The position numbers and the translations under genes are program-made. Of a stretch of 64,000 nucleotides of DNA, positions 44,881 to 52,717 are shown one piece after another. The notes below the pieces were generated by a model that worked only from the letters and a program-made list of their open reading frames with translations, was not told the DNA's origin and ran no database searches. This DNA is from Pantoea rwandensis (GTDB taxonomy: Bacteria > Pseudomonadota > Gammaproteobacteria > Enterobacterales > Enterobacteriaceae): positions 124,001 through 188,000 of the forward strand of contig NZ_CP009454.1 of assembly GCF_000759475.1 (NCBI RefSeq), in the 5' to 3' direction. Position 1 is the first letter of the stretch, and every line of letters starts with the position of its first letter.

Positions 44881-45291
44881 TTATTCGCGCTTTAAGCGAT
44901 TGCTATTGGCTAACCACAGCGTGACCACCAGAATTAAAATCGCCGCTGAATAATAAAGCGTGTCGAACGGGTTTTTGTGGTCAACGATTATTAGACGAAT
45001 GATTGCGGTGATGCCGATATAGATGAAATAACGCAGCGGAAAGTGATAGCCGGACTGGAAGTACTTCACGATCAGCGCGATAAATTCAAAATAAAGAAAA
45101 TAGATCACAATGCCTTCGATCAGCAGGTAGGACGACGCCTGCTCACCGGTGCTGAACAGCACATTGGCTAAATGGATTGTCTCTTTGCCAAGGAAGACCA
45201 CCAGGATGACAGCCAGCGTCACCAAACCCATATTCAGAACCCATTGTAAAACTGAAGCAATAAGCTGCCCCATCGCTGATTTTGTTGTCAT
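44881..45291 (-). CDS. psiE: Phosphate-starvation-inducible protein PsiE
   Basis: 136 residues from the ATG at 45291, the E. coli length; the in-frame extension to 45333 is not conserved. Inner-membrane protein with four helices; [17 protein letters not shown], then [20 protein letters not shown] and the end SNRLKRE are hallmarks. In E. coli psiE is activated by PhoB and repressed by cAMP-CRP. A perfect CRP core lies 50 bp upstream. Its neighbour here is a Pho-type uptake cluster and not the maltose genes. Confidence 0.96.
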
Positions 45292-45340
45292 TTTTATGCG
45301 CCTCAAAGTACGGAAACTTTCTGAGGCTATCATGCTGTAG

Positions 45341-45361: not shown

Positions 45362-46060
45362 CTACACATCAACATCCACACAGAGCGCGTCATAACGCCA
45401 GTACTCACAGTCACAGTCGATCACCCGTTTATGTTGATCGCGGTTGATACGTGTAATCAGTAATCCGGGAGTGCCGCTGGCGACATTAAGTGCCGGTGCA
45501 GCGCGCGCCGGTAACGGACCAGGAAGAATGGTAAAGCGTGCGCCGCCGTAACGAATGCCATAACGCTGATCGTAGAGGTCGGTGAGCGAGCGGGTCAGAT
45601 CTTCTTCCAGCAGGCCAGGAAAAAAGGCCGGGTTGAGGTAATGTTCGACATACAACACCGCGCGGCCATCGATACGTCGCAGGCGGCGAATGCGAAATAC
45701 ACTATCGCCTTCTAATAGCTGTAAATGTCGCGCAATCACCAGCTGTGCCGGGACCTCCCGCGCCTCAATCACTTCAGTAAGGGCGATACGGCCTTGTTCG
45801 GCCGCCATGGCATGAAAGTGGCTGTGATGGGCCGGGTTATACACCAGCCTTGGCGGTGCGAGAAACCAGCCTCGACGCAATTCACGGTAAATAATGCCCT
45901 GCGCTTCCAGCAAGCCCAGCGCCTCACGCAGGGTAATGCGCGTGGTGGAATAGAATTCACTCAAACTGCGTTCTGCCGGTAAACGCCCGCTGGCAAATTC
46001 ACCGTTTTCAATGCGTTCACTCAGCGCCGTAGCAATCACATCCACCGTTTTTGACGACAT
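45362..46060 (-). CDS. GntR/HutC-family regulator, PhnR-like
   Basis: 232 residues. N-terminal winged helix (about 5-65: SGRLPAERSLSEFYSTTRITLREALGLLEAQG) and a C-terminal UTRA effector domain. The end, DQHKRVIDCDCEYWRYDALCVDVDV in outline, parallels Salmonella PhnR ([24 protein letters not shown]), the regulator of 2-aminoethylphosphonate genes, as does the WFLAPPRL.YNP segment near 65. It is divergent from an ABC importer operon of the same PhnSTUV type. PHO-like repeats stand 33 bp upstream of its start and a CTAG-centred palindrome lies in the shared promoter region. Effector probably an organophosphorus compound; unproven. Confidence 0.88.
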   Translation of the reverse strand: MSSKTVDVIATALSERIENGEFASGRLPAERSLSEFYSTTRITLREALGLLEAQGIIYRELRRGWFLAPPRLVYNPAHHSHFHAMAAEQGRIALTEVIEAREVPAQLVIARHLQLLEGDSVFRIRRLRRIDGRAVLYVEHYLNPAFFPGLLEEDLTRSLTDLYDQRYGIRYGGARFTILPGPLPARAAPALNVASGTPGLLITRINRDQHKRVIDCDCEYWRYDALCVDVDV

Positions 46061-46092
46061 TCTTTAGCCTCATTTTGGGGCAATTCTGCACT

Positions 46093-46121
46093 ATGACAGT
46101 TCGATGACTACAATATGACAG
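46093..46121 (-). promoter_or_regulatory. Tandem PHO boxes upstream of the PhnR-like gene
   Basis: Reading on the minus strand: CTGTCAT-ATTG-TAGTCAT-CGAA-CTGTCAT. Three PhoB 7-mers at exact 11-bp spacing, two of them perfect. This matches overlapping PHO boxes and points to PhoB activation of the regulator gene. Confidence 0.78.
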
Positions 46122-46189
46122 GCATATCCCACGCTTTCGCGCGCTGTATCCGCATGTGGAGCTGCGCGTCACACCACATTTCACCACCA

Positions 46190-46223
46190 TGGTCATAAAA
46201 CCTTCATCTGATCGGGCTACATT
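46190..46223 (+). promoter_or_regulatory. PHO-like box and -10 of the uptake operon
   Basis: TGGTCAT-AAAA-CCTTCAT (46190-46207) resembles a PHO box with two mismatches per 7-mer and the AT spacer. A -10 TACATT (46218-46223) follows after 10 bp, the spacing used at PhoB-dependent promoters that lack a -35. Confidence 0.6.
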
Positions 46224-46237
46224 GGCTCGGTTCTTGC

Positions 46238-46249
46238 TGGACTAGACCA
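46238..46249. promoter_or_regulatory. Candidate PhnR-like operator
   Basis: TGGACTAGACCA is a CTAG-centred inverted repeat with one mismatched pair, located just past the predicted transcription start of the uptake operon. GntR/HutC proteins often bind such sites. Confidence 0.5.
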
Positions 46250-46283
46250 AGACGTCCCACAACTTACACCCGGAGCAATCGAG

Positions 46284-47345
46284 ATGAAAGCGTTTATCTC
46301 CTCTGTAGTAGCCAGTGCCGTACTGCTTGCGCTGCCCGCCGCGCACGCCGCCGATAACGACCTTGCCGCGCTGGAAAAAGCCGCGCGTGCTGAGGGCCAG
46401 GTCAACAGCGTCGGTATGCCAGACAGCTGGGCGAACTGGAAAGACACATGGAATTACATCAACAGCAAATATGGCCTGAAGCACAGCGATACCGATATGT
46501 CATCGGCGCAGGAGCTGGCTAAATTTGATGCAGAGAAAGAGAACGCCAGCGCCGATATCGGTGATGTGGGCGCCGCTTTCGGTCCGGTCGCGGTGACCAA
46601 AGGTCTGGCACAACCCTACAAACCGACGCATTGGGATCAGATTCCGAGCTGGGCAAAAGATAGCGAAGGCAACTGGATGCTGGCTTACACCGGCACCATC
46701 GCCTTCCTGATCGACAAACAGCAGGTGAAAGATGCGCCACACAGCTGGGCCGATCTGAAGAAAGGTAAGTATGTGGTCACTATCGGTGATGTCGGCGTGG
46801 CTGCTCAGGCTGCGAACGGCGTTCTGGCCGCGAACTACGCACTGGGTGGTGATGAGAAGAACCTGAAGCCAGCGTTGAACTTCTTTGGCGAACTGGCCAA
46901 AGAGGGCCGTCTGGGCGTGACCGATCCGGTGATTGCCAACATCGAGAAAGGCGAAATTCAGGTTGCCGTGGTATGGGACTTCAACGGTCTGAATTACCGC
47001 GATCAGATCGACAAAAACCGCTATGAAGTGGTGATCCCGTCTGATGGCTCCGTGATTTCAGGCTATACCACCATTATCAACAAATACGCTAAGCACCCGA
47101 ACGCCGCCAAACTGACGCGCGAATACATCCTGTCTGATGAAGGTCAGACCAACCTGGCGAAAGGTTATGCGCGTCCAATTCGTGCTGAACATTTGACCCT
47201 GCCAGCTGACGTACAGGCCAAACTGCTGCCGCAGTCTGAGTACAAAAATGCCCGCCCAATCAAAGACCAGGCCGCATGGGATAAGACGTCAAAAATGCTG
47301 CCGCGCCTGTGGCAAGAGAACGTGATTATCAATATGAAGCAGTAA
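46284..47345 (+). CDS. ABC transporter periplasmic substrate-binding protein (iron/phosphonate/AfuA-like type)
   Basis: 353 residues with a clear signal peptide (residues 1-22, cleaved at AHA-AD). The mature protein resembles the two-lobed SBP_bac_6/8 group (PhnS, AfuA, FbpA relatives): GMPDSWANWKDTW near 44, SSAQELAKFDAEKENASADIGDVG near 73-96, YTGTIAFLIDK near 135 and VAVVWDFNG near 231. First gene of a five-gene operon. Binding-protein relatives take phosphonates, hexose phosphates or ferric iron; the phosphodiesterase gene next to it and the Pho-type promoter favour an organophosphorus ligand. Confidence 0.88.
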   Translation: MKAFISSVVASAVLLALPAAHAADNDLAALEKAARAEGQVNSVGMPDSWANWKDTWNYINSKYGLKHSDTDMSSAQELAKFDAEKENASADIGDVGAAFGPVAVTKGLAQPYKPTHWDQIPSWAKDSEGNWMLAYTGTIAFLIDKQQVKDAPHSWADLKKGKYVVTIGDVGVAAQAANGVLAANYALGGDEKNLKPALNFFGELAKEGRLGVTDPVIANIEKGEIQVAVVWDFNGLNYRDQIDKNRYEVVIPSDGSVISGYTTIINKYAKHPNAAKLTREYILSDEGQTNLAKGYARPIRAEHLTLPADVQAKLLPQSEYKNARPIKDQAAWDKTSKMLPRLWQENVIINMKQ

Positions 47346-47469
47346 TTTGCACACACCCTGGCGGCGCGATGTCGCGCATCGATCTGCAGCGACAACGCTG
47401 CGCATCGATACGCAATACGTTGCGCCGCTATGCACAGTGCCCGCAATTTGAATGATGTAAGGAACGGGA

Positions 47470-48279
47470 ATGAAGACAATCCTGGTGGTACTGGATGGCC
47501 TGAGCAATCAGGTGGCACAGCATGCGATGGGCTATCTGTTTGCCGAATGCAAGCAGGGTAATGGCCAATACTACACGCTCACCTGCGAGCTGCCTTCGCT
47601 ATCGCGTCCGCTATACGAGTGCATTCTGACCGGTATTCCGCCGGTAGAGAGCGGCATTATACATAACGGCGTCAATCGCCTGAGCAATCAGCGTAGCATC
47701 TTCCATTACGCCCGCGCCGCCGGTTTAACCACGGCCGCTGCCGCCTATCACTGGGTCAGTGAGCTGTATAACCAATCCCCGTTCAACAATGCGCGTGATC
47801 GCCACACCGTCGCCCCCGATTTGCCGATCCAATACGGCCACTTTTACTGGGACGACAGTTATCCGGATTCCCACTTGTTTGAAGATGCTGAGAGCCTGCG
47901 TCTGAACCACGATCCGGACTTTTTACTGATCCACCCGATGAATATTGACGATGCCGGGCATAAACACAGCCTGTCATCGCCGCAATACCGCAACCGCGCA
48001 CGAATGGCCGATGGCTATTTGTCACAGTGGATGCCCGGCTGGCTCGCCGCGGGCTATCAGGTGATCGTCACCGCCGACCACGGCATGAACGATGACCGTT
48101 CGCACGGCGGTATTTTACCGGAAGAGACGCAAGTGCCGCTGTTTGTGTTTGGTGCAGGCTTCTCACGTCAGCCCGATCTCGAACCGCAGCAGATCGAACT
48201 GTGCGGTATTGTCTGCACGCTGCTCGGCATTGAACACGACAAACCCGTGTGTCACGGTTTGCTGGCGGGGCCGCGTTAA
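47470..48279 (+). CDS. Nucleotide pyrophosphatase/phosphodiesterase-like (alkaline phosphatase superfamily) enzyme
   Basis: 269 residues with no signal peptide, so it should act in the cytoplasm. Two-metal site residues of the superfamily are all visible: D9 (VVLDG), the nucleophile position Ser45 in PSLSRP (usually Thr in NPP enzymes), D160/D161 and H164 (NIDDAGHKHS), D203 and H204 (TADHG), H212 (RSHGG). Typical NPP substrate-pocket pieces LTGIPP and GIIHNGVN follow the nucleophile. Expected reaction: hydrolysis of a phosphoester, phosphodiester or phosphonate brought in by the ABC importer encoded around it. The stop overlaps the next ATG by one base (TAATG). Confidence 0.88.
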   Translation: MKTILVVLDGLSNQVAQHAMGYLFAECKQGNGQYYTLTCELPSLSRPLYECILTGIPPVESGIIHNGVNRLSNQRSIFHYARAAGLTTAAAAYHWVSELYNQSPFNNARDRHTVAPDLPIQYGHFYWDDSYPDSHLFEDAESLRLNHDPDFLLIHPMNIDDAGHKHSLSSPQYRNRARMADGYLSQWMPGWLAAGYQVIVTADHGMNDDRSHGGILPEETQVPLFVFGAGFSRQPDLEPQQIELCGIVCTLLGIEHDKPVCHGLLAGPR

Positions 48280-49127
48280 TGAAGGGCAAAACCCTCGCCA
48301 CACTGTTACTGCTGCCGTTCGCCTTTTTCTGGGTCGCCTTCCAGCTCGCGCCGCTGTTGTGGATTGCCATTAACAGCTTCTGGAGCGACATGAACGAGCG
48401 CTGGGGTATCGATAACTATACCGATATCCTCACTTCGCCGTTTTATCTGCAGGCATTTCGCCTGTCGCTGGATATCTCCATCTGGTCGAGCATTTACGGC
48501 CTGCTGATTTCGCTGTTTGCCGGCTATTCCCTGCATCAGTTGGGCAGCGGTCGTTTTCAGCGCTTCCTGATGTCCTTCACCAACATGACCAGTAACTTCG
48601 CCGGCGTGCCGCTGGCGTTTGCCTTCGTGATTCTGCTGGGCATGAATGGCTGTCTGACGCTGCTGCTGCGCCACTTCGGCATGCTGGAAGGATTCAAACT
48701 GTTCTCGCGTGACGGCATGGTGCTGGTTTACACCTGGTTCCAGATCCCACTTGGCATTCTGCTGCTCTATCCGGCGTTTGATGGCTTACGCAAAGATTGG
48801 GAAGAGTCAGCCGCGCTGCTCGGTGCCAGTCGCTGGCGTTACTGGTGGCATATTGGTTTGCCCATTTTGTTCCCGGCGCTGTTAGGGACTTTCGTCATCC
48901 TGCTGGCCAATGCCCTGGGCGCTTACGCCACCATTTATGCACTGACCACCGGTAACTTTAACGTGGTGCCAGTGCGAATTGCTGCGCTGGTGTCGGGCGA
49001 TATCTCGCTCGATCCGAATACCGGCGGTGCGCTGGCAATGTTGCTGGTGTTCATTATGGCGCTGATTACCGTGGTGCAGCAGTATCTGGTGCGCCGCAGT
49101 TATCTCAACGCGAAATCACAGGAGTAG
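48279..49127 (+). CDS. ABC transporter permease, PhnU-like
   Basis: 282 residues from the ATG at 48279 overlapping the phosphodiesterase stop; an earlier in-frame start at 48249 would overlap it further. Six membrane helices of the binding-protein-dependent (MetI) type, with the EAA loop seen as EESAALLGASRWRYWWHIGLPILFPALLG near 176-204. Forms the channel with the next permease and the ATPase for uptake of the substrate caught by the binding protein. Confidence 0.9.
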   Translation: MKGKTLATLLLLPFAFFWVAFQLAPLLWIAINSFWSDMNERWGIDNYTDILTSPFYLQAFRLSLDISIWSSIYGLLISLFAGYSLHQLGSGRFQRFLMSFTNMTSNFAGVPLAFAFVILLGMNGCLTLLLRHFGMLEGFKLFSRDGMVLVYTWFQIPLGILLLYPAFDGLRKDWEESAALLGASRWRYWWHIGLPILFPALLGTFVILLANALGAYATIYALTTGNFNVVPVRIAALVSGDISLDPNTGGALAMLLVFIMALITVVQQYLVRRSYLNAKSQE

Positions 49128-49130
49128 AAC

Positions 49131-49916
49131 GTGTCTCGCGCGGAAAAAATTTATCATCGCCTGATTATCTGGCTGCTGCTGATCATCCTCGCCGCCCCGC
49201 TGCTGGCGACGCTGCTGTACGGCATATCCACCGACTGGAGTGACACTATTCTGCCGCAGGGCTTCACACTTAAGTGGCTTATCGCACTGTGGAGCGATCC
49301 GCGTTTCCTGACGGCGCTCGGTCATTCGCTGCTGATTTGCTTTGGTGCGCTGTTGTTCTCGCTGGTGCTGGTGCTGCCTGCGATGTTTGTAATCGCTTAC
49401 TATTATCCGAAGCTGGATGCGGTGATGAACGTGCTGATTCTGATGCCGTTTGCCGTACCGCCGGTGGTGTCATCCGTTGGCCTGCTGCAGCTTTACTCGT
49501 CATCACCGCTGATGATCACCGGCACGCCGTGGATTCTGGTCGGCTGTTATTTCACCATCGCGCTGCCGTTTATCTACCGCGCCATTGCCAACAATATGCA
49601 GGCGATCAACCTGAAAGAGCTGATTGATGCGTCTCATCTGCTGGGTGCCAGCACCTGGCAGGCAGCACTGTTTGTGGTGTTGCCCAACCTGCGCAAAGGC
49701 GTGTTTATCGCGGTGTTGCTCTCTTTCTCTTTCCTGATAGGTGAGTTTGTGTTCGCTAACCTGTTAGTCGGCACTCGCTATGAAACCTTACAGGTGTATC
49801 TCTACAATATGCGTAACGGCAGCGGCCACTTTACCAGTGCGCTGGTGATCTCCTATTTTGCTGTCGTCCTGCTGGTCACCTGGCTGGCGAATGCCCTCAA
49901 TCCTGAACGAGGCTGA
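49131..49916 (+). CDS. ABC transporter permease, PhnV-like
   Basis: 261 residues from a GTG at 49131 behind AGGAG. Six membrane helices; the EAA-like loop is LKELIDASHLLGASTWQAALFVVLPNLRKG near 162-191. Second half of the importer channel, three bases after the first permease stop and two bases before the ATPase start, so tightly translated together. Confidence 0.9.
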   Translation: MSRAEKIYHRLIIWLLLIILAAPLLATLLYGISTDWSDTILPQGFTLKWLIALWSDPRFLTALGHSLLICFGALLFSLVLVLPAMFVIAYYYPKLDAVMNVLILMPFAVPPVVSSVGLLQLYSSSPLMITGTPWILVGCYFTIALPFIYRAIANNMQAINLKELIDASHLLGASTWQAALFVVLPNLRKGVFIAVLLSFSFLIGEFVFANLLVGTRYETLQVYLYNMRNGSGHFTSALVISYFAVVLLVTWLANALNPERG

Positions 49917-49918
49917 CC

Positions 49919-50911
49919 ATGAGTTATCTGAATGTCACCCAGCTGAACAAAAGCTACGGCCCCACCAGCATCTTTGAAAATATCGATTTCAGCGCCGATG
50001 AAGGCGAGTTTGTCACCCTGCTCGGCCCGAGCGGTTGCGGCAAATCGACGCTGCTGCGCTGCATCGCCGGTTTGACCGATGTCGATAGCGGCAAAATTCT
50101 GCTGCAGGGTCAGGATATCGTGCCGCTGCCACCGCAGAAACGTACTATCGGCATGGTGTTTCAGAGCTACGCACTGTTCCCCAACATGACGGTGGAGAAG
50201 AACGTGGCGTTTGGCCTGAAAATGCAGAAACTGCCAGGCGGCGATATTCAGAAACGCGTTATGGAAGCGCTGGCACTGGTCGAACTGACCGATTTTGCCC
50301 GCCGTTATCCGCACCAGCTTTCTGGCGGACAATGCCAGCGTGTTGCCTTAGCGCGCTCCCTGGTCACGCGTCCTCGTTTGCTGTTGCTGGATGAGCCGCT
50401 CTCCGCACTGGATGCGCGTATCCGCCGCCATCTGCGCGAACAGATCCGCAACATTCAGCAGGAGTTAAAGCTCACTACGATTTTCGTTACCCACGATCAG
50501 GAAGAGGCGCTGACGCTGTCGGATCGCATCGTGCTGATGAACCGTGGCAAGATCGTGCAAAACGGCAACGCTGAAGCCCTCTACACGCAACCAGCCGACC
50601 TATTTGCCGCCGGGTTTATCGGCAACTACAACCTGCTGAGTGCGGAACAGGCAACGCAGCTCACCGGCCAGACATTCACGGGTCAGGTAGCGATTCGACC
50701 TGAGTCAATCCGCTTGAGTGCACCGCAGGATGGCATTCCGGGCACTATTCTCAGTCACAGCCTGCTGGGTAATGTCATTCGCTATCGCGTAGTGGCGAAT
50801 AGCGTGGAGTTATCCGTCGATGTGCTGAACCGTAGCGTGGCGGATTTGCACCCTGCTGGCATGCAAATTGGTCTACAGTTAGAGATGTCGACGTTGCGCC
50901 AGGTTGCTTAA
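49919..50911 (+). CDS. ABC transporter ATP-binding protein, PhnT/PotA-like
   Basis: 330 residues. Walker [10 protein letters not shown] near 37-45, Q loop FQSYALFPNMTV near 80, signature LSGGQCQRVALARSLV near 135 (Cys after LSGGQ instead of the usual Gln, a common variant), Walker B LLLLDEPLSALD near 155, switch His in THDQEEA near 190. A C-terminal TOBE-like domain (about 250-330; AIRPESIRLS near 259) is typical of importers for polyamines, iron and phosphonates. Last gene of the five-gene operon. Confidence 0.93.
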   Translation: MSYLNVTQLNKSYGPTSIFENIDFSADEGEFVTLLGPSGCGKSTLLRCIAGLTDVDSGKILLQGQDIVPLPPQKRTIGMVFQSYALFPNMTVEKNVAFGLKMQKLPGGDIQKRVMEALALVELTDFARRYPHQLSGGQCQRVALARSLVTRPRLLLLDEPLSALDARIRRHLREQIRNIQQELKLTTIFVTHDQEEALTLSDRIVLMNRGKIVQNGNAEALYTQPADLFAAGFIGNYNLLSAEQATQLTGQTFTGQVAIRPESIRLSAPQDGIPGTILSHSLLGNVIRYRVVANSVELSVDVLNRSVADLHPAGMQIGLQLEMSTLRQVA

Positions 50912-51091
50912 ATTTAACGAAAAATGGGCAAGGCAACGCGGCAGTATTCAGCGTTAATGCAGCCTGTTAATCGTTGTCGAGGCGGCCTGTAGGCTGCCCG
51001 TGGTCGCGCTACGGTGCGCCCGCCACTTCGGTGCTCACCCACAGGCTTGCAGTTGGTGCAATGAAAGTCTGAGGATAAGGAACCGCCCGAC
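50912..51091. other. Intergenic region with partial inverted repeats before yjbB
   Basis: The stretch near 50985-51058 is GC-rich and has facing GGCCTGTAGG and CCCACAGGC segments with a smaller GTGG..GCGC / GCGC..CCAC structure inside. It may end the ABC operon transcript or be a degenerate repeat; no PHO box is evident. Confidence 0.4.
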
Positions 51092-52717
51092 GTGTTGACC
51101 CTGCTCAATCTATTATCTGCCGTGGCCCTGCTGGTGTGGGGCACGCACATTGTGCGCACCGGCATCATGCGCGTGTACGGCGCCGATTTGCGGCGGGTGC
51201 TCAGCCGCAGCGTGGAAAAGAAGCCGATGGCGTTTCTCGCCGGGATTGGCGTCACCGCGCTGGTGCAGAGCAGTAATGCCACCACCCTGCTCGTCACCTC
51301 ATTCGTCGCACAGAATCTGGTGAGTCTGACGCCTGCGCTGGTGGTGGTGCTCGGTGCCGATGTCGGTACCGCCATCATGGCGCGTATCCTGACCTTCGAT
51401 CTCTCCTGGCTATCGCCGCTCTTCATCTTCTTTGGTGTGGTGTTCTTCCTCAGCCGTAAGCAGACGCGGGCCGGACAAATGGGGCGCGCCGCGATTGGTC
51501 TTGGATTGATTCTGCTGGCCTTGCAACTGATTGTCGCCGCCGCCAAACCCATCACTCAAGCGGCAGGTGTGCAGGTTTTATTCTCCACGCTGACTGGCGA
51601 TGTCATGTTAGATGCACTGCTGGGTGCCGTATTCGCGATCATCAGCTACTCCAGTCTTGCTGCTGTACTGATCACCGCCACGCTCACGGCCACCGGGGTC
51701 ATCTCGTTCAAAGTCGCGCTGTGCCTGGTGATTGGCGCCAATCTCGGCAGTGGTTTACTGGCGATGATCAATGCCAGCGGTTCCAATGCTGCAGGTAAAC
51801 GCGTGGCACTCGGCAGCTTGCTGTTCAAATTGATCGGTAGCCTGGTTATTTTGCCTTTCGTCGATTTCATCGCTGATGTGCTCGATAAGTTGCCGGTGAA
51901 TGACGAGGAGTTGGTGATCTTCTTCCACGTGTTTTATAACCTGCTTCGTTGTCTGGTGATGGTGCCATTTACCGGTCCCATGGCGAGCTTGTGCCGACGC
52001 ATGATTGCCGATGACCCAGAAAACCAGGTTCACTTAAAGCCCAGACATCTTGATAGCAGCGCACTGGATACGCCGGCATTGGCACTGGCGAACGCATCGC
52101 GGGAAACGCTCCGTATAGGCGATGTGGTTGAACAGATGATGGAGTCTTTCAACAAAGTGGTTCACGGTGAGCTACGAGAAGAGCGTGTGGTGCGGCGGTT
52201 GGATGATGATGTTGACGTGCTGTATACCGCTATCAAACTCTATCTTGCACGCATGCCGAAAGAAGATTTGCCAGAAGAGGATTCACGTCGCTGGGCAGAG
52301 ATTATTGAGATGGCGCTCAACCTGGAGCAAGCGGGCGATATCATCGAGCGCATGTGCGCAGATGTGGCCGATAAGTCATTGCAGGCCCGGCGCGCATTCT
52401 CCGCCGAAGGATTAGGAGAGTTAAATACTTTGCAGGAGCAGGTGCTGAATAATTTACGCCTGAGTCTGTCGGTATTTTTGTCTAAAGACCTCACCAGCGC
52501 CAAACGCCTGCGCCGTTCCAAACACCGCTTCCGCATCCTGATTCGCCGCTTCTCTCATGCACACGTTGAGCGCTTACATCAACAGAACGTGCAGAGCATC
52601 GAAACCAGTTCCCTGCATTTAGGGTTGCTGGGGGATATGAAGCGTCTGAACTCGCTGTTCTGTGCAGTGGCGTATACGGTGCTGGATCAGCCGGATGATG
52701 AGCGGGATGAGGATTAA
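51092..52717 (+). CDS. yjbB: Na+/phosphate cotransport-family protein YjbB
   Basis: 541 residues from a GTG at 51092 (AAGGA upstream; E. coli YjbB 543). Two Na/Pi repeats lie in the N-terminal membrane half (about 1-300; VGVTALVQSSNATTLLVTSF near 58 is the QSS signature and IISYSSLAAVLITATLTATG the second), followed by a cytoplasmic PhoU-like helical domain (about 330-530). In E. coli YjbB exports excess phosphate. It follows an operon predicted to release phosphate inside the cell, which would make such a valve useful. In E. coli it lies elsewhere, so this neighbourhood is different. Confidence 0.95.
   Translation: MLTLLNLLSAVALLVWGTHIVRTGIMRVYGADLRRVLSRSVEKKPMAFLAGIGVTALVQSSNATTLLVTSFVAQNLVSLTPALVVVLGADVGTAIMARILTFDLSWLSPLFIFFGVVFFLSRKQTRAGQMGRAAIGLGLILLALQLIVAAAKPITQAAGVQVLFSTLTGDVMLDALLGAVFAIISYSSLAAVLITATLTATGVISFKVALCLVIGANLGSGLLAMINASGSNAAGKRVALGSLLFKLIGSLVILPFVDFIADVLDKLPVNDEELVIFFHVFYNLLRCLVMVPFTGPMASLCRRMIADDPENQVHLKPRHLDSSALDTPALALANASRETLRIGDVVEQMMESFNKVVHGELREERVVRRLDDDVDVLYTAIKLYLARMPKEDLPEEDSRRWAEIIEMALNLEQAGDIIERMCADVADKSLQARRAFSAEGLGELNTLQEQVLNNLRLSLSVFLSKDLTSAKRLRRSKHRFRILIRRFSHAHVERLHQQNVQSIETSSLHLGLLGDMKRLNSLFCAVAYTVLDQPDDERDED

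Follow-up and report, generated by a model that had tools for sequence, protein, structure and literature searches.

Gene content of the Pantoea rwandensis cassette

We analyzed a 64,000-nucleotide stretch of the Pantoea rwandensis genome (contig NZ_CP009454.1, positions 124,001 to 188,000), hereafter called the window. It carries a cassette of six genes encoding a GntR-type regulator, a periplasmic binding protein, a small hydrolase of the phosphodiesterase (PDE) type, two permeases, and an ATPase. An open reading frame (ORF) check of the window found all predicted ORFs at the coordinates and on the strands listed in a preliminary description of this DNA. The domain matches agreed with the families named there, including psiE on the far side of the regulator gene. 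In window positions, the genes and the one large spacer within the operon are as follows:

44881..45333, minus strand: psiE, phosphate-starvation-inducible gene (PsiE family match), co-oriented with the GntR gene and located behind it, with 28 bp between the listed ORFs
45362..46060, minus strand: PhnR-like GntR/UTRA regulator (UTRA and GntR domains; NCBIfam PhnR, TIGR03337, 264.1 bits)
46284..47345, plus strand: periplasmic binding protein (SBP_bac_6; signal-peptide-like N terminus by eye; PDB 5t1p_A, E value 7e-158)
47346..47469, plus strand: spacer with a long stem-loop between the binding protein and PDE genes (from folding energy)
47470..48279, plus strand: hydrolase resembling PhnA and the nucleotide pyrophosphatases/phosphodiesterases (NPPs), referred to as PDE; 269 amino acids, presumed cytoplasmic (Phosphodiest, PF01663)
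48279..49127, plus strand: permease A (BPD_transp_1; ATG start)
49131..49916, plus strand: permease B (BPD_transp_1)
49919..50911, plus strand: ATPase (ABC_tran; best NCBIfam match PhnT2, 381.6 bits)
51092..52717, plus strand: YjbB-like carrier of sodium and inorganic phosphate (Pi) with a PhoU domain (Na_Pi_cotrans; TIGR01013)

The regulator and importer had been likened to PhnR and PhnSTUV. The likeness was confirmed, but family membership proper was not, as all scores fell below the curated cut-offs. The regulator reached 264.1 bits against 296.75 for PhnR, and the importer components reached 40.5 against 395.3 (PhnS), 87.6 against 358.7 (PhnV), and 381.6 against 457.7 (PhnT2). Family models and solved relatives placed the binding protein among those for 2-aminoethylphosphonate (AEP), sulfate, and iron. 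The YjbB-like protein exceeded the cut-offs of both of its models (TIGR01013, 430.4 versus 306.15 bits; NF037997, 142.8 versus 50 bits).

The operon was described as tightly packed, which holds except at two junctions. The 124 bp between the binding protein and PDE genes contain a strong hairpin (−56.1 kcal/mol, z score of −4.1, positions 47340 to 47470). Spacers from 78 relatives also fold strongly in many cases, although not in all. A multicopy element was considered for this hairpin and rejected, as one copy was found in the genome. The second junction is the 180-bp gap between the ATPase gene and yjbB (50912 to 51091), where a GC-rich inverted repeat was noticed by eye; yjbB may therefore be a separate transcript. 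The operon had also been said to occupy the place of the Escherichia coli maltose genes. This proved incorrect: in E. coli K-12, psiE and ubiC flank the mal genes, whereas these two are direct neighbors here and the operon is situated on psiE's far side from ubiC.

The hydrolase belongs to the NPP-type phosphodiesterases

The enzyme had been predicted to be a two-metal phosphodiesterase lacking a signal peptide, and our results agree with this. PDE matched PF01663 (type I phosphodiesterase/NPP) with 55.8 bits at a gathering score of 23. Its N terminus starts straight in the stretch carrying the first invariant aspartate, D9, and no signal peptide was seen by eye. Across 36 sequences of 27 to 85% identity to PDE, residues D9, S45, N66, D160, H164, D203, H204, and H212 were invariant. 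Six of these (D9, D160, H164, D203, H204, and H212), which we take to be the metal ligands, constitute a conserved two-metal ligand set, and Ser45 is the presumed nucleophile.

In a profile search of solved structures, the best matches were bacterial NPPs, ENPP7, PhnA, and ENPP6. PDE shares the alkaline phosphatase superfamily and the pattern of catalytic residues with these proteins but is much shorter, at 269 amino acids versus 383 to 429 for three bacterial NPPs, ENPP6, ENPP7, and PhnA. It further differs in showing no signal peptide, in the serine at the nucleophile position, and in its PhnA score. PhnA (TIGR02335) was its sole NCBIfam match, at 22.2 bits compared with a cut-off of 407.55. 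The nucleophile of PhnA is likely a threonine, according to the part of PMC10574752 available to us. The low score and the serine in place of the presumed nucleophile together argue that PDE is not a PhnA. No description of PDE function was found in the literature searched, which lay mostly outside subscription journals.

Conservation and distribution of the cassette

Conservation was assessed in the best 80 of at least 528 confirmed named loci, a set that leans to close relatives. All six cassette genes were present in 77 of these 80, a grouping well beyond chance, which substantiates the expectation that the five operon genes and the regulator would be found together in other genomes. PDE stood between the binding protein and the permeases in 78 loci, and a relative of the GntR regulator was found in 77; in one locus (L086; L numbers are our locus handles) the contig begins too late to show it. 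A YjbB relative occurred within 6.5 kb in just 38 of the 80, and an obligatory tie of the cassette to yjbB was accordingly rejected.

PDE was detected in 48/60 genomes sampled from the genus, in 49/197 genomes of the order sample and 41/398 of the phylum sample (both with an E-value limit of 1e-30), and, mostly in a distant form, in 15/385 genomes from a different class within the phylum (limit of 1e-25). Among the loci listed, the nearest PDEs (98 to 99% identity) come from Candidatus Pantoea formicae and a strain labeled Erwinia sp. S63. Holders of the cassette include Pantoea, Rahnella, Serratia, Dickeya, many Pseudomonas, records labeled Vibrio, Aeromonas, or Halomonas, and Enterococcus faecium plasmids. 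A P. aeruginosa plasmid has the five genes in the identical order, as do the E. faecium plasmids, where it was seen on both of those inspected (L012 and L187). In the Enterococcus loci, the divergent neighbor is a PHP-domain gene akin to those for histidinol phosphatases. Plasmid records with a PDE match were mostly from Enterococcus (179/199), and 113/199 were typed as conjugative. Two further carriers, phages and E. coli, were considered and discarded: a viral collection yielded one weak match of 23%, and megablast, which detects only about 85% identity or more, gave zero matches in 5,426 E. coli genomes.

Distant PDE homologs were also observed near genes for oligopeptide-type binding proteins (L147, L148, L150 to L152, L186, L205, L211, and L214), and in some of these loci a large hydrolase-like gene adjoins, as judged by eye. 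The oligopeptide-type neighbors suggest that a second type of importer is paired with this enzyme family.

Predicted Pho boxes and a GntR operator in the divergent promoter

The region between the divergent regulator and binding protein genes contains the following sites:

46093..46120, minus strand: predicted triple Pho box directed towards GntR-psiE (1 mismatch to TGTCAT-N5-TGTCAT-N5-TGTCAT)
46190..46207, plus strand: Pho box predicted for the operon promoter (14/18 to the consensus)
46218..46223, plus strand: presumed −10 element TACATT, read from the sequence, 10 bp behind the Pho box
46238..46249, plus strand: predicted GntR operator TGGACTAGACCA (11/12 to the palindrome TGGTCTAGACCA)

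The divergent promoter of this conserved cassette thus has predicted Pho boxes to either side, and a GntR-type palindrome follows the presumed −10 element. Since the operator and Pho patterns were picked after viewing the sequence, weight was placed on their conservation rather than on counts in the window. A palindrome score of at least 10/12 was reached by 128 of 146 upstream regions, versus 1 of 146 after shuffling. These 146 include repeats from the same genome (L001, L003, and L096 from that of the window; L137 and L160 from another) and close relatives, and were thinned to 92 distinct upstreams. In 56 of the 92, the Pho box and the palindrome were exactly 48 bp apart, start to start, an arrangement which occurred in none of 40 shuffles under identical thresholds. 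In line with the presumed −10 element, a context resembling TAnATTGG recurred in many upstream regions.

On the regulator side, the triple Pho box pattern gave 2 overlapping matches in the window at 3 mismatches or fewer (0.05 expected). Pho box scores of 13/18 or higher were found in 42 of 76 distinct GntR upstreams, compared with 0.66% of shuffles. It should be noted that the shuffles preserve base content (in the 146-upstream and GntR-upstream tests) or two-base blocks (in the 48-bp test) but not relatedness.

The sites were weak or absent in some lineages. In L160, where no GntR gene was seen within 17 kb, the palindrome was lost (7/12) and the Pho box was near perfect (17/18). Low Pho box scores were obtained for Dickeya (L036 and L037), L098, and several loci resembling that of the Vibrio record L015, in which the palindrome was displaced too, and both sites were missing in L164 and L165. 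Stand-alone PDE genes had Pho-box scores at or just above chance. As judged from its predicted PhoB boxes, the cassette would belong to the Pho regulon, and the geometry of the sites suggests that PhoB activates the promoter and that the GntR protein blocks it immediately past the transcription start.

Characterized relatives of the importer

The closest studied counterpart is AepSTU of Pseudomonas putida BIRD-1, also known through its binding protein PhnD3. In the cassette, the regulator, binding protein, and ATPase genes are arranged as in PPUBIRD1_3890 to PPUBIRD1_3895, compared by locus tag and in another P. putida genome rather than in the BIRD-1 sequence; PDE would correspond to tag 3892. 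In that other P. putida genome, 15 SBP_bac_6 matches fell into 14 stretches, and in one of these a regulator relative adjoins the binding protein, with the ATPase four genes further along.

In BIRD-1 under low Pi, the GntR protein 3890 and the ATPase 3895 increased by 3.57 and 4.72 log2 units, respectively, and were not detected in the phoBR mutant, as listed in Table 2 of PMC5082522. The binding protein 3891 (phnD3) increased by 2.69 log2 units independently of PhoBR, according to the accessible part of the same source. The accessible text of PMC8316502 identifies PPUBIRD1_3891 as AepS and AepSTU as an auxiliary AEP importer, a triple transporter mutant being unable to grow on AEP. The same run of tags therefore combines a PhoBR-independent or constitutive binding protein with a PhoBR-dependent regulator and ATPase, as far as these two sources are available. 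This behavior of 3891 might be due to a second promoter or to the spacer hairpin. PP1726 is listed in one proteome table as an ABC transporter. The earlier statement that no characterized pathway has this exact make-up thus seems to hold for PDE in the literature searched but not for the transporter, which has been studied as AepSTU.

Other known systems resemble the cassette in part. The regulator resembles PhnR of the Salmonella PhnRSTUV system, which is accompanied by phnWX, and the binding protein and permeases are distantly related to PhnS, PhnU, and PhnV; however, the cassette scores below all curated cut-offs, has no phnWX in the locus, and contains PDE. UgpBAEC-UgpQ of E. coli provides Pho-controlled import of phosphodiesters followed by cytoplasmic hydrolysis and would be a functional parallel, although its enzyme is of the GDPD family and its binding protein belongs to another family. 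Cj0727/0728 to Cj0734 of Campylobacter jejuni are presumably the same cassette, as is backed by the match to the strongly similar binding protein 5t1p, which presumably comes from that species. Cj0728 to Cj0734 were reported to be phosphate regulated (PMC1892558), and cj0727 to cj0732 are listed among operons without an assigned function (PMC7176700), both in the accessible parts of these papers.

Phosphatase and C-P cleavage genes accompanying PDE

A gene for a HAD-IB phosphatase followed the ATPase gene in 64 of 93 testable loci; close relatives were not removed from this set, and of 165 loci, 72 were excluded because of a short flank or because the ATPase was not found. The five HAD proteins scanned, or their kin, scored above the HAD-IB subfamily cut-off and below those for histidinol and serine phosphatases. 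The 29 loci without a HAD gene belong to the Pantoea clade, where yjbB is next, and to Dickeya, Mangrovibacter, Serratia, Lonsdalea, Halomonas, and Enterococcus. A homolog of the HAD-IB protein with 39% identity is encoded elsewhere in the P. rwandensis genome. A phosphodiesterase followed by a phosphomonoesterase suggests stepwise conversion of a phosphodiester to Pi.

The preliminary description had noted that phnW, phnX, and C-P lyase genes are missing. This is correct for the locus but not for the genome, where a gene for the C-P lyase subunit PhnI was found at 2.22 Mb (2219487 to 2220539); a genome profile search gave no PhnX match above the family cut-off. The hydrolase was further supposed to take the place of PhnWX, which is probably wrong. 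According to the accessible text of PMC8316502 and PMC9311074, phnWX is essential for AEP use in P. putida BIRD-1, so that PDE alone does not make AEP a phosphorus source. In addition, PhnX above its cut-off was more common in order-sample genomes with PDE (24/49) than in those without (13/148), the opposite of replacement, although kinship confounds this comparison and is ignored by the Fisher test. We therefore discarded PDE as a PhnWX substitute.

Conversely, 16 of the 49 PDE genomes had neither PhnX over its cut-off, nor PhnI, nor a strong Phn-HD match. This count covers these three markers, with PhnA and PalA left out; for Phn-HD, 9 strong matches were used, all below the curated cut-off, and two weak ones (genomes G325 and G461) were set aside. 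In these 16 genomes, the product of PDE should be a phosphate monoester, unless another route of C-P cleavage operates.

The TmpA-TmpB pathway for 2-trimethylaminoethylphosphonate provided a further hint. In Labrenzia, genes for TmpA (577.5 bits, cut-off of 400) and TmpB (351.8 bits, cut-off of 300) stand directly before a PDE homolog (31%), an arrangement shared by one other genome. Overall, of 21 distant-homolog loci, among them three from named Alphaproteobacteria, 3 had TmpAB-like genes close to the PDE homolog; in two they were contiguous with it, and in one they were on the other strand. AEP import, the TmpAB neighbors, and the enrichment of PhnX thus provide three hints to aminoethyl or choline-type head groups. 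One conjecture that would fit all of them, and the 16 genomes without the three markers too, is that PDE acts on diesters of ethanolamine phosphate and on AEP esters alike.

Proposed function and alternative explanations

Taken together, the module is real and widespread, and it looks phosphate-starvation controlled; its importer is partly known, its enzyme is not. The conserved Pho boxes, the Pi-responsive P. putida counterparts, and the HAD-IB partners support its earlier assignment to phosphorus scavenging. Judging from the sequence, the cassette probably is a phosphate-starvation module by which phosphodiesters or phosphonate esters are taken up under Pho control and hydrolyzed in the cytoplasm. 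At low Pi, phosphorylated PhoB would activate the operon, and the GntR protein would repress it until bound by a ligand, which is perhaps the substrate. An intact phosphodiester or phosphonate ester would enter by way of the binding protein and the ABC importer and would be cut in the cytoplasm by the two-metal PDE with its serine nucleophile. Such import and internal cleavage had been proposed before and are plausible. The product would be finished by the HAD-IB phosphatase, which is encoded in the operon of most testable relatives and perhaps replaced by the homolog elsewhere in P. rwandensis; with a phosphonate head group, C-P lyase, PhnWX, or TmpAB would complete the breakdown instead. Surplus Pi may exit through YjbB. 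From the genomic context, our guess is that the head group is most likely aminoethyl or choline-like, as in glycerophosphoethanolamine or AEP esters.

Several observations weigh against this proposal. The match to BIRD-1 rests on tag order, that is, six consecutive tags, and in the accessible parts of the sources AepS is constitutive and not PhoBR dependent (PMC5082522 and PMC8316502), while a mutant lacking aepSTU alone grew on AEP without a defect (PMC8316502). The operon Pho box on its own is unremarkable, as about 16 window matches of its class are expected, and the 48-bp arrangement was not shown by 36 of the 92 distinct upstreams. The TmpAB neighbors belong to distant PDE homologs without the cassette importer and are not in the P. 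rwandensis locus. Furthermore, PDE stands alone beside yjbB in Pantoea ananatis (L027, 8374 to 10190) and Erwinia persicina (L039, 8811 to 9941). Another genome of the genus (L118) keeps PDE beside yjbB, the regulator, binding protein, and importer being gone, and a few distant loci (L153 to L155) have PDE without a transporter. The coupling of PDE to the transporter is therefore not obligatory, and a lone PDE seems either to be useful without its transporter or to be a relic.

The survival of PDE without a transporter in the two named species would also be expected if the cassette were a plain AEP importer, AepSTU, with PDE as a passenger or acting on an unrelated cytoplasmic diester. The support of growth with AEP as a phosphorus source (accessible text of PMC8316502) and the higher frequency of PhnX in PDE genomes (24/49 versus 13/148) point the same way. 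However, a passenger would not be expected to sit between the binding protein and the permeases in 78 of the best 80 loci and on Enterococcus plasmids, nor to be followed by HAD phosphatase genes in 64/93 loci, and 16/49 PDE genomes lack the three C-P cleavage markers. The intact AEP growth of the single aepSTU mutant speaks against a plain AEP importer as well, and we regard this explanation as unlikely.

It is less probable still that PDE itself is a PhnA-like C-P hydrolase freeing Pi from an imported phosphonate. PhnA is among its nearest solved relatives and is its sole NCBIfam match, but at 22.2 bits against 407.55, and all 36 sequences have serine at the presumed nucleophile where PhnA likely uses threonine (PMC10574752, in part). 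The need of BIRD-1 for PhnWX on AEP (accessible text of PMC8316502 and PMC9311074) and the HAD phosphatase partners, which indicate a phosphate monoester product, are at odds with it too. Equally improbable is the scavenging of nucleotides or cyclic nucleotides, with imported nucleotide diesters being cut by an NPP-type enzyme. It is suggested by the best profile matches, which are nucleotide pyrophosphatases/phosphodiesterases, but PDE is far shorter than its nearest solved relatives (269 versus 383 to 429 amino acids), the binding protein belongs to a family for AEP, sulfate, and iron, and AepSTU carries AEP (accessible text of PMC8316502). We give hardly any credence to an importer for iron or an anion with an unrelated regulatory history: the binding protein is related to those for Fe3+ and sulfate, but the Pho boxes are conserved, the P. 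putida proteins respond to Pi (PMC5082522), and AEP is transported (PMC8316502), as far as these sources are accessible.

Implications for phosphonate and phosphodiester use

Beyond the uptake and cytoplasmic hydrolysis of esters under phosphate starvation, we tentatively suggest, as a possibility we consider rather doubtful, that PDE founds an uncharacterized family of hydrolases that act in the cytoplasm on phosphodiesters and phosphonate monoesters carrying head groups of the aminoethyl or choline type, and that it is served by its own importer. To our knowledge, the known phosphonate catabolic pathways start from free phosphonate; PDE would be a front end to them. The cassette is widespread, and its PDE has no assigned substrate in the literature searched, which lay chiefly outside subscription journals. 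The enzyme, importer, regulator, and promoter are all defined and can be tested jointly. If the proposed phosphate-starvation function holds, one known AEP importer would be part of a diester-using route, and caution would be called for in gene surveys that treat aepS-type genes as markers for AEP. With the hydrolase family suggested above, many bacteria would import intact (phosphono)lipid fragments and other conjugates by means of PDE and its importer, so that phosphoethanolamine, AEP, or trimethylaminoethylphosphonate would be freed for HAD phosphatases, PhnWX, C-P lyase, or TmpAB.

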